This document shows, piece by piece, positions 18,079-20,839 of a stretch of DNA of 64,000 nt. The position numbers and the translations under genes were made by a program. Every line of letters starts with the position of its first letter. Positions within the stretch are counted from its first letter, which is position 1. The stretch spans positions 1,922,001 to 1,986,000 of the forward strand of contig NZ_CP079107.1 in the NCBI RefSeq assembly GCF_019285735.1, in the 5' to 3' direction. The notes below the pieces were generated by a model, which was given only the letters and a program-made list of their open reading frames with translations, was not told the DNA's origin and searched no databases. Source of the stretch: Paeniglutamicibacter sp. Y32M11 (lineage in GTDB: Bacteria > Actinomycetota > Actinomycetes > Actinomycetales > Micrococcaceae).

Positions 18079-18109
18079 CCCGCGGGCGCGTCGAAGGCGC
18101 GCCCGCGGG
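18079..18109 (+). terminator. GC-rich hairpin after glpK
   Basis: A perfect 12-bp stem, CCCGCGGGCGCG (18079-18090) with CGCGCCCGCGGG (18098-18109), has a 7-base loop. It has no T-tract, as is common in high-GC Actinobacteria, and closes the glycerol cluster. Confidence 0.65.
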
Positions 18110-18126: not shown

Positions 18127-18132
18127 TAGAAT
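18127..18132 (+). promoter_or_regulatory. -10 element of the leuS leader transcript
   Basis: TAGAAT is followed after six bases by the ATG of the leader ORF (18139), so the transcript probably begins on that ATG. The -35 region overlaps the GC-rich glpK terminator and is not recognisable. Confidence 0.55.
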
Positions 18133-18138
18133 GTGGGC

Positions 18139-18165
18139 ATGAACGCAGTGCTCTTGCTAACTTAG
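18139..18165 (+). CDS. Leucine-codon leader peptide upstream of leuS
   Basis: An 8-codon ORF encodes MNAVLLLT, with three consecutive leucine codons (CTC TTG CTA, 18151-18159) shortly before the stop. It begins exactly 6 bases after a -10 hexamer and has no ribosome binding site, so it is probably translated from a leaderless end. It is followed at once by two hairpins, the second an intrinsic terminator. The layout is that of a classical attenuator in which ribosome stalling on uncharged leucine tRNA controls read-through into leuS. Seen: ORF, codons and hairpins. Inferred: regulation. Confidence 0.6.
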   Translation: MNAVLLLT

Positions 18166-18216
18166 CCGCATGGAATGAACCCCATGCGGCCGCCCCTTGT
18201 TTGCCAAGGGGCTTTT
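18165..18216 (+). promoter_or_regulatory. Attenuator (pause hairpin plus intrinsic terminator) in the leuS leader
   Basis: Hairpin 1 pairs GCCGCATGG (18165-18173) with CCATGCGGC (18182-18190) and starts on the leader stop codon. The terminator hairpin pairs GCCCCTTG (18192-18199) with CAAGGGGC (18205-18212) around TTTGC and runs into TTTT (18213-18216). CCCCATG (18180-18186), freed if hairpin 1 is melted by a stalled ribosome, could pair with CAAGGGG (18205-18211) at six of seven positions and act as a weak antiterminator. A terminator 107 bases before the leuS start and after a start-proximal promoter has no role except attenuation. Confidence 0.65.
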
Positions 18217-18322
18217 GTGTGTCAGGGGGTCTTTGCCGCCGATGCACTCCATGAACCGCAGTCACGCAGCCACGTTCCACCCCTCCATCAGGCGCAGCAA
18301 CAAAAGAAGGCGAAACACGATA

Positions 18323-20839
18323 GTGAGCACCCAGCCGACCGGCACCGATACCGCTGACAACGAGTCCACAGCAGCGGCCTACGACTTCCACACGATGGAA
18401 GCCAAGTGGGCCCCGGTGTGGGAAAAACTCGGCGTCTTCACGCCCAAGGACGATTCCAGCGCCGAACGCCGCTACGTGCTTGATATGTTCCCCTACCCCT
18501 CCGGCGACCTGCACATGGGTCACGCCGAGGCCTTCGCCATGGGGGATGTGGTAGCGCGCTATTGGCGCCAAAAGGGCTACAACGTGATGCACCCGATTGG
18601 TTGGGACTCCTTCGGTCTGCCGGCCGAGAACGCCGCCATCAAGCGCAATGCCCACCCCGCCGAGTGGACGTACGCGAACATCGACACCCAGGCCGCCAGC
18701 TTTAAGCGCTACGCGATCTCCGCCGACTGGGAACGGCGCATCCACACCTCGGACCCGGAGTACTACCGCTGGACCCAGTGGCTGTTCACCCGCTTCTACG
18801 ACAAGGGCCTGGCCTACCGCAAGAACCACCCGGTGAACTGGTGCCCGACCGACCAGACCGTGTTGGCCAACGAGCAGGTTGTTAACGGTGCCTGCGAACG
18901 CTGCGGCACCATCGTGACCAAGAAGTCGCTGAACCAGTGGTACTTCAAGATCACCGATTACGCGGACCGCCTGCTTGATGACATGGACGAGCTGAAGGGC
19001 CACTGGCCCGAGCGCGTGCTGGCCATGCAGAAGAACTGGATCGGCCGCTCCGAGGGCGCCCACGTTGACTTCGTCATCGAAGCCACCGAGTCCCAGGAAG
19101 CCCACAAGACCACGGTCTTCACCACGCGCCCGGACACGCTGCACGGCGCCACCTTCTTTGTGGTGGCCGCCGACGCCGAGCTGGCCAATCAGCTGGTCAC
19201 GCAGGAACACCGCGAAGCCCTCGAGGCCTACCAGGAGCAGGTCAAGGCGCTTTCCGAGATCGAACGCCAGGCCACCGAACGCGAAAAGACCGGTGTTTTC
19301 ACCGGCCGCTACGCCATCAACCCGCTTAACGGGGAAAAGCTGCCCGTCTGGGCCGCGGACTACGTGCTGGCCGACTACGGCACCGGAGCGATCATGGCCG
19401 TGCCCGCGCACGACCAGCGCGACCTGGACTTCGCCCGCACCTTCGACCTGCCGGTACGCGTGGTCGTTGATACCGGCGCCGAGGACCCGGCCGAAACCGG
19501 CATTGCGACCACCGGTGAAGGTGTTTTGGTGAACTCCGGTGAGCTGAACGGCCTGCCCAAGGCCGACGGCATTTCCCGCGCCATCGACATCGTGACCGAG
19601 GCCGGCACCGGTGAGAAGTTTGTGAACTTCCGCCTGCGTGACTGGCTCCTGAGCCGTCAGCGCTTCTGGGGCACGCCGATCCCGATCATTCACTGCGCCG
19701 ACTGTGGTGAGGTCCCGGTTCCCGATGACCAGCTGCCGGTGCGCCTGCCGGAGAATCTGCGCGGCGAGCAGCTGGCGCCCAAGGGCACCTCCCCGCTGGC
19801 AGCCGTCGAGGAATGGGTCAACGTACCCTGCCCCACCTGTGGTGCCCCCGCCAAGCGCGACACCGACACCATGGACACCTTTGTCGACTCCTCCTGGTAC
19901 TTCCTGCGCTTCGTTTCCCCGAACTACACCGAGGGTCCCTTTGACCCGCAGGCGGTTCGTGACTGGATGCCGGTGGGCCAGTACGTGGGCGGCGTTGAGC
20001 ACGCGATTTTGCACCTGCTCTACTCGCGCTTCTTCACCAAGGTCATCTTCGATCTGGGTCTGATCGATGTGAAGGAACCCTTCAGCGCCCTGTTGAACCA
20101 GGGGCAGGTGCTCAACGGCGGCAAGGCCATGAGCAAGTCGCTGGGCAATGGTGTGGATCTGGGTCAGCAGCTGGATAAGTTCGGTGTTGACGCCGTGCGC
20201 CTGACCATGATCTTCGCCTCCCCGCCGGAGGACGACGTGGACTGGGCAGATGTGTCCCCGGGTGGTTCCTCCAAGTTCTTGGCCCGCGCTTGGCGCCTGG
20301 CCCAGGACGTGGCCAGTGAGGTGGGAGCGGATGTCACCACCGGGGATAAGGCACTGCGCCAGATCACCCACAAGGCCGTCCACGAGGCGACCGGGATGCT
20401 TGACGGTGGCAAGTTCAACGTTGTCATCGCCAAGATGATGGAGCTGGTCAACGCGACCCGCAAGAGCATCGACTCCGGTGCCGGTGCGGCGGATCCCGCG
20501 GTACGCGAGGCCACCGAGGCCGTGGCCATCGTGCTCTCGCTCTTCGCCCCGTACACCGCCGAGGACATGTGGGCGGCACTGGGCCACGAACCGGCCGTCG
20601 CCAACGCCGGCTGGCCGACCGTTGATGAGGCCCTGCTGGTGCAGGACACCGTCACCGCCGTGGTGCAGATCAAGGGCAAGGTCCGGGCACGGCTGGAAGT
20701 TTCGGCCGACATCAGCGCCGAGGACCTGGAGGCCCTGGCACTGAAGGATGAGGCAGTGGTGCGTTACCTTGATGGTGCGGCCATCAACAAGGTGATCGTT
20801 CGTGCACCGAAACTCGTCAACGTGGTGCCGGCTTCCTAA
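18323..20839 (+). CDS. leuS: Leucyl-tRNA synthetase
   Basis: A class I synthetase that charges tRNA-Leu. The 838-residue protein has the HIGH-type motif in [15 protein letters not shown] (residues about 57-71), the KMSKS-type motif [11 protein letters not shown] (near residue 600), the CP1 editing domain ([13 protein letters not shown] and [14 protein letters not shown]) and a C-terminal anticodon-binding domain. GTG 18323 is chosen since AGAAGG lies 12 bases upstream; the frame is open back to 18197, but that part overlaps the attenuator. Expression is probably controlled by the leucine leader upstream. DegV follows after 23 bases but seems to have its own promoter. Confidence 0.97.

Follow-up and report, generated by a model that had tools for sequence, protein, structure and literature searches.

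The leuS gene of Paeniglutamicibacter sp. Y32M11 is probably governed by a ribosome-mediated transcription attenuator that senses leucine through a leaderless leader peptide and is homologous to the attenuator of the same gene in Streptomyces, as judged from its sequence and that of its relatives. In the window (the whole 64,000-nucleotide stretch of DNA that was analyzed) all parts of this element lie on the forward strand. A -10 promoter box, read from sequence as TAGAAT (18127-18132), is followed by six bases and then by the start codon of a putatively leaderless leader ORF, MNAVLLLT (18139-18165; ATG AAC GCA GTG CTC TTG CTA ACT TAG). The regulatory leucine codons are CTC TTG CTA (18151-18159), the third of which, CTA, is a rare codon. 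Beyond them lie an unpaired spacer of 5 nt (18160-18164), hairpin 1 (hp1; 18165-18190, nine pairs, -17.1 kcal/mol), which is the proposed ON-state (antitermination) hairpin and has the G of the leader stop codon TAG as its first base, a gap of 1 nt (one C, 18191) and the stem-loop of an intrinsic terminator (18192-18212, 8 pairs, -13.7 kcal/mol). The U-tract TTTT (18213-18216) and a tail, GTGTGTC, whose conservation is taken from the Micrococcaceae alignment, together occupy 18213-18223. The regulated gene, leuS (18323-20839), begins with GTG at 18323 and encodes the bacterial leucyl-tRNA synthetase (TIGR00396, 978.3 bits vs. a cut-off of 548.4).

The initial annotation had described the promoter box, the six bases, the 8-codon ORF with three consecutive leucine codons, a hairpin starting on the leader stop codon and a terminator with an 8-bp stem and TTTT, and each of these was found where it had been placed. 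The terminator had been put more than 100 bases ahead of leuS, and the measured distance from the end of TTTT to the gene is 106 bases; the end point given for the element, 18322, is one base before the leuS GTG. For the first 87 nt of the leader, none of 200 shuffles folded as well (z -4.35). The fold of the 202 nt up to leuS is unremarkable (z -1.52, with 14 of 200 shuffles equally good). A promoter scan at the leuS leader returned no sigma-70-type promoter, and no fitting -35 box was seen. An inverted repeat that is perfect over 12 bp, encloses a loop of 7 nt and lacks a T-tract can be seen by eye between glpK and leuS (18079-18109), with its 3' arm occupying the place expected of a -35 box.

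Conservation of the leader among relatives

Upstream regions were gathered by similarity of the LeuS protein, i.e., unbiased by RNA features, which gave 70 loci (59 of 61 Micrococcaceae genomes and 11 from elsewhere in the order). In 39 of the 59 Micrococcaceae loci a -10-like box is followed by a leader with two or more leucine codons, and L018, whose leader has a single leucine codon, brings the total to 40/59. All 15 same-genus loci, the window's own included, carry the leader, as do 8 of the 11 loci of the order outside Micrococcaceae. Inspection by eye excluded 22 loci for want of a leader (19 Micrococcaceae, 3 other), and L018, L024, and L027 among those retained were positioned by hand; L035, although excluded, is likely to have a leader, as its genome (G039) matched the covariance model described below. 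Other Micrococcaceae genera read MRAILLLS, MHAILLLS, MSAVLLLF, or MKTLLL, and leaders outside the family are of an LLLTGPR type. The shortest leaders in the set have six codons (L039, L041, and L043; MPFRLL, MKTLLL). A -10-like box, examined at 4-9 nt from the start codon only, precedes 100 of 114 distinct leaders, and in 99 of those 100 the distance from its end to the start codon is 6 or 7 nt.

An alignment of 21 Micrococcaceae sequences (A2) was used to build the covariance model R1. In hp1, 94.6% of the cells of this alignment are paired and both-side changes occur at 6 of 9 pairs, and for the two hairpins together none of 500 shuffles reached any of five covariation measures. The leucine codons are conserved among Micrococcaceae and both hairpins covary, as an upstream alignment for leuS had been proposed to reveal; with the constant distance of the promoter box, these findings support the suggested leucine attenuation by way of a leaderless leader peptide. 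R1 matches all of a larger group of 88 sequences, comprising the window and 87 of 89 fetched R1 loci (L081-L109 and L139-L198, with L165 and L196 left out). Both-side changes are present there at 8 of 9 hp1 pairs and 7 of 8 terminator pairs, in an alignment that was itself fitted to R1; here too, none of 500 shuffles reached the observed covariation.

The element is widely distributed. R1 was found in 159 of 295 Micrococcaceae genomes (18 of 32 genera), in 129 of 394 genomes of the class (55 of 138 genera) and in 17 of 198 genomes of the phylum, 5 of the 17 lying outside the class; these searches used strict filters, and a missing match does not amount to proof of absence. The gene behind the best class matches (L081-L109) is leuS in 29 of 29 cases, behind further class matches in 30 of 40, and in genomes chosen for having several matches in 9 of 20. 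The range of leaderless leucine attenuation of leuS would thereby grow beyond a few Streptomyces and take in many genera of actinobacteria.

Of the 80 named relatives identified through LeuS, 54 have an R1 match at E <= 0.05 and 26 have none (two of these with fewer than 100 upstream bases), including all six Kocuria, both Rothia and the only Micrococcus locus. The element appears to be dispensable, since these 26 relatives have no R1 match, and we count this against the attenuator. Its loss in several genera would suit a constitutive promoter-proximal terminator or a processing structure that does not sense leucine, but the leucine codons, the rare last codon, the spacer and the promoter position are all conserved, and we consider this explanation highly improbable. 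Six Glutamicibacter-like loci are also reduced in their leucine codons: L204, L205, L206, and L208 have one CTA, L212 has CTA CTC and L210 has no leucine codon. The four loci with one CTA (e.g., MHPKRNLV) retain a promoter box, a short hairpin and a terminator, and may represent a decayed or minimal single-codon version of the leader.

Many synthetase genes are under T-box control. In a search of Rfam 15 with the 1.5 kb around the element (E <= 1), however, the sole match was far below its gathering score and was taken as chance, with no T-box among the results, and in 20 related loci (E <= 0.01) no family fitted, the matches being a tRNA gene next to L097 and two below threshold. We therefore give practically no credence to a T-box or another known riboswitch at this locus.

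The tail GTGTGTC is conserved past the expected point of termination, with CATGTCCGG or GTGCCCGG in its place elsewhere. It was considered as a general terminator tail and rejected: GGGCTTTTGYRTGTC occurs once in its own genome, and CTTTTGTGTGTC with at most one mismatch occurs 8 times vs. 19 for a reversed control. Base pairing between the 5' end of the RNA and the tail after the U-tract was likewise rejected, as an effect of composition. Over all groups 1 of 300 swaps was as good, but within Micrococcaceae 50 of 400 were, and there the reversed tail paired better.

Relation to described attenuators

Attenuators of leuS were predicted in Streptomyces coelicolor and S. avermitilis in 2005 (Seliverstov et al., PMC1262725), and in S. 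lividans TK24 the LeuL2 peptide was reported in 2021, on the strength of RNA-seq, to be transcribed leaderless, with a hairpin and a U stretch; leaderless leaders ahead of leuS, trpS, and thrS of S. lividans are described in the available text of that study (PMC8079986). The view that such a leader is unusual on a synthetase gene, expressed in the initial annotation, is therefore not supported. We place the window's element with the Streptomyces leuS attenuators because R1 finds leuS leaders with the LeuL2 peptide: matches in large-genome members of the class (L097, L162, L164, L195, and L197) read MRAVRLLLSEPR, which is the LeuL2 peptide of S. lividans. The element shares with the Streptomyces type its place directly upstream of leuS, a leader ORF with a leucine run, a start that is predicted to be leaderless in the window, an intervening hairpin with covariation and, after the ORF, an intrinsic terminator with a U-tract, in addition to this homology. 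It differs in that the window's leader has eight codons with hp1 beginning on the stop, whereas the stop of the MRAVRLLLSEPR leaders lies further on, inside hp1. The hairpin called the antiterminator in the 2005 prediction is matched by hp1 of the window, which would likewise act in antitermination (PMC1262725). The window thus appears to hold another leuS attenuator of an already predicted Streptomyces kind. No Micrococcaceae are named in the 2005 genome list as far as the available text goes (PMC1262725), and no report of a leuS attenuator in this family was found in the literature searched, part of which was available as excerpts.

Work on branched-chain amino acid (BCAA) genes bears on such leaders in both directions. 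The available text of the 2005 paper reports that changing the possible regulatory codons of S. coelicolor ilvB was without effect (PMC1262725), and we count this against the attenuator. In Mycobacterium tuberculosis, changing LVVI to AAAA in the ilvB1 leader gave low expression independent of drug dose, and stalling is proposed to be the ON state, with a ribosome at the stop codon leading to termination (PMC13236596, available text). The ilvB1 leader resembles the window's in having BCAA codons in a short uORF, but it precedes another gene and its structures are described in that text as mutually exclusive (PMC13236596). The ilvBNC operon of Corynebacterium glutamicum is, in the available descriptions, the nearest case of adjacent hairpins: its leader begins one nucleotide from the transcript start, and antiterminator and terminator are adjacent. 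There, however, a third hairpin and a shared GCC are proposed, and the window's hairpins share no base (PMC11857589, available text).

The trp, leu, thr, and his attenuators of Escherichia coli resemble the proposed one in that the position of a ribosome decides whether the terminator forms, and differ from it in the pairing treated in the next section. Leaderless sORF attenuators with poly-cysteine runs were reportedly described in mycobacteria by Canestrari and colleagues in 2020; they are alike in using a leaderless short ORF as an amino-acid sensor, and different in sensing cysteine. At the cys operons, the 2005 study found no obvious terminators (PMC1262725, available text).

Sense of the switch and position of hairpin 1

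Counted from the first base of the P site, the helicase of the ribosome works at about +11. When CTA occupies the A site this point falls on 18164, one base short of hp1; when TAG does, it falls on 18170, where six of the nine hp1 pairs would be open. By a footprint of 15-16 nt, a ribosome stalled at the third leucine codon would cover at most 5 hp1 bases and one stalled at the first codon none. Since +11 falls before hp1 in the one case and inside it in the other, a stall should leave hp1 folded and completion of the leader should open it. From the -10 position, transcription would start at or beside the A of the ATG, and a 70S ribosome would load on the leaderless 5' end and translate MNAVLLLT. 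When charged tRNA-Leu is scarce it would wait at CTC, TTG, or the rare CTA, so that hp1, just ahead, would remain folded, the abutting terminator would fail and leuS would be transcribed. When leucine is plentiful the ribosome would reach the stop codon, open about six of the nine hp1 pairs and let the terminator work. Expression of leuS is expected to go up under a shortage of charged tRNA-Leu, which would make hp1 the ON hairpin; we infer this from the sense of regulation and by analogy with the BCAA attenuators of other actinobacteria.

The initial annotation had instead supposed that stalling melts hp1. By the +11 rule the stalled ribosome would end one base before that hairpin, and under the footprint rule it would reach at most five bases into it. 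The proposal continues that melting frees CCCCATG (18180-18186) to compete with the terminator by pairing with its 3' arm, and as a whole it seems very unlikely to us. The four C of 18180-18183 can indeed pair with the terminator GGGG, but a run of at least four C occurs in 12 of 15 same-genus loci and in 2 of 25 other Micrococcaceae loci with a leader, which largely confines it to the genus, and the duplex is worth -7.7 kcal/mol vs. -13.7 kcal/mol for the terminator. The leucine codons themselves were also considered as an antiterminator against the terminator 3' arm and set aside, the pairing, compared by eye only, being weak and of the wrong sense.

In the classical E. coli arrangement the antiterminator pairs with part of the terminator 5' arm. 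Transcripts were therefore folded in truncated form, from the last leucine codon to the terminator loop, before the 3' arm (for E. coli from 5 nt past the codon). The controls had 5-9 arm bases paired (thr 9/13, leu 6/12, trp 5/8, and his 9/15), whereas in the window (row L001) none of the 8 arm bases is paired. The mean paired fraction of the arm is 0.14 in 65 leuS elements found by the model, 0.19 in 48 found by protein similarity and 0.23 in 18 elements before other genes, part of it due to small local hairpins. Upstream RNA pairs with at least half of the arm in 1/65, 5/48, and 0/18 of these, respectively. Over the 113 leuS rows, 63 have no upstream pairing of the arm and 6 have at least half of it paired, one row, L068, having a mis-assigned terminator (its last stem was wrongly taken for it). 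These counts weigh on a boundary competition like that of C. glutamicum ilvBNC, in which hp1 would grow by 2-3 pairs at the expense of the first bases in the terminator foot. In that operon the antiterminator lies next to the terminator and has a GCC trinucleotide in common with it (PMC11857589, available text), and hp1 of some relatives, e.g., L023, can extend into the terminator, but given the unpaired arms in the window and in most rows we see only a small likelihood of it. Base pairing by itself would not turn hp1 into an antiterminator, because hp1 and the terminator can fold together and might stack.

What is constant is the order of the parts and the distances between them: a rare last leucine codon, usually 5 nt, an hp1 of 16-69 nt, 0-2 nt and the terminator. 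The spacer is 5 nt in 47 and 4 nt in 16 of the 65 model-found leuS elements (63/65 together), and 5 nt in 36 and 4 nt in 6 of the 48 protein-found ones (42/48 together). Every one of the 131 rows measured (128 distinct loci, three being common to the 65 and the 48) has a gap of 0-2 nt between hp1 and the terminator; this gap is favored by R1 in the model-found set, but the protein-found set was not selected on it. The 83 model-found rows consist of the 65 leuS elements and 18 others, among them L172, which is too short for its gene to be named; the window and L178 (a cut match) were left out, and L146, L185, and L192 gave no ORF. In two loci of one genus, L029 and L031, a long hairpin is inserted in the terminator loop, and hp1 measures 59 nt with the gap still at 1 nt.

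In 87 of 96 distinct leuS leaders the leucine codons end with CTT or CTA. These two codons make up 4.4% of the 5296 leucine codons of 80 named leuS genes and 35 of 176 leucine codons elsewhere in the leader runs, and CTA, the last leucine codon of the window's leader, accounts for 0 of 62 leucine codons in its own leuS gene. The contrast is large, but p-values for it are inflated by common descent. The textbook model of competing hairpins does not account for this geometric rule, in which about 5 nt separate the rare codon from the hairpin and 0-2 nt the hairpin from the terminator.

A fixed spacer and gap would fit a ruler. One explanation is that hp1 is a pause or spacing element, and that folding of this hairpin brings the stalled ribosome close to RNA polymerase, so that the ribosome itself hinders the terminator; by arithmetic, the path from P site to U-tract would be about 37-43 nt with hp1 folded. 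A hairpin-stabilized pause behind hp1 was considered and rejected, however, as pause-like YG steps have no clear peak at any one distance (0.21-0.35 over offsets 8-15 in 107 distinct sequences), and we rate the explanation as a whole as rather unlikely. Another is that hp1 blocks the terminator by its adjacent position. With a folded helix fused to its foot, the terminator stem could not close inside the RNA exit channel, and translation past the last rare codon would remove the helix and turn termination on. We tentatively suggest, as a possibility that is still open to considerable doubt, that leuS, citramalate synthase, and ilvB leaders of actinobacteria form a class of attenuator of this kind, with no pairing-based antiterminator. 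If adjacency alone does stop the terminator, a class has escaped those attenuator searches that require the hairpins to overlap. The rule also offers a simple part for building actinobacterial leucine sensors.

Similar leaders before other genes

Further R1 matches lie ahead of citramalate synthase, with leaders such as VQRTAIIIP and VQSALIIT, and ahead of the acetolactate synthase gene ilvB, e.g., MRLGILVLH and VHRILVVSEHVV. For three fragments the genes were named by NCBIfam with scores under the cut-offs (L185 and L144 best with TIGR00977, L150 with an acetolactate synthase model), and the other citramalate synthase and ilvB genes were named by eye from the same N-terminus. Isoleucine-rich leader ORFs or isoleucine runs precede citramalate synthase at L142, L144, L151-L153, L158, L177, L181, L185, L186, L188, and L192-L194, with the same geometry of hp1 and terminator. 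The ilvB leaders at L148, L150, L155, and L182 (ILVL and ILVV types) have similar spacing and abutting hairpins. A citramalate synthase leader with attenuation was sought in the literature searched, which yielded no description of one and only work on a methanogen. One further match, L156, has the leader MFALVIIM before a gene to which no name was assigned.

Across the 18 non-leuS rows (L172, counted here, may be leuS) the spacer is 5 nt in 10 and 0, 3, 4, or 6 nt in 8, and the gap between hp1 and the terminator is 0 or 1 nt. In 12 of the 18 the regulatory codons end with ATT, a minority isoleucine codon (183 of the 1981 isoleucine codons of the named leuS genes).
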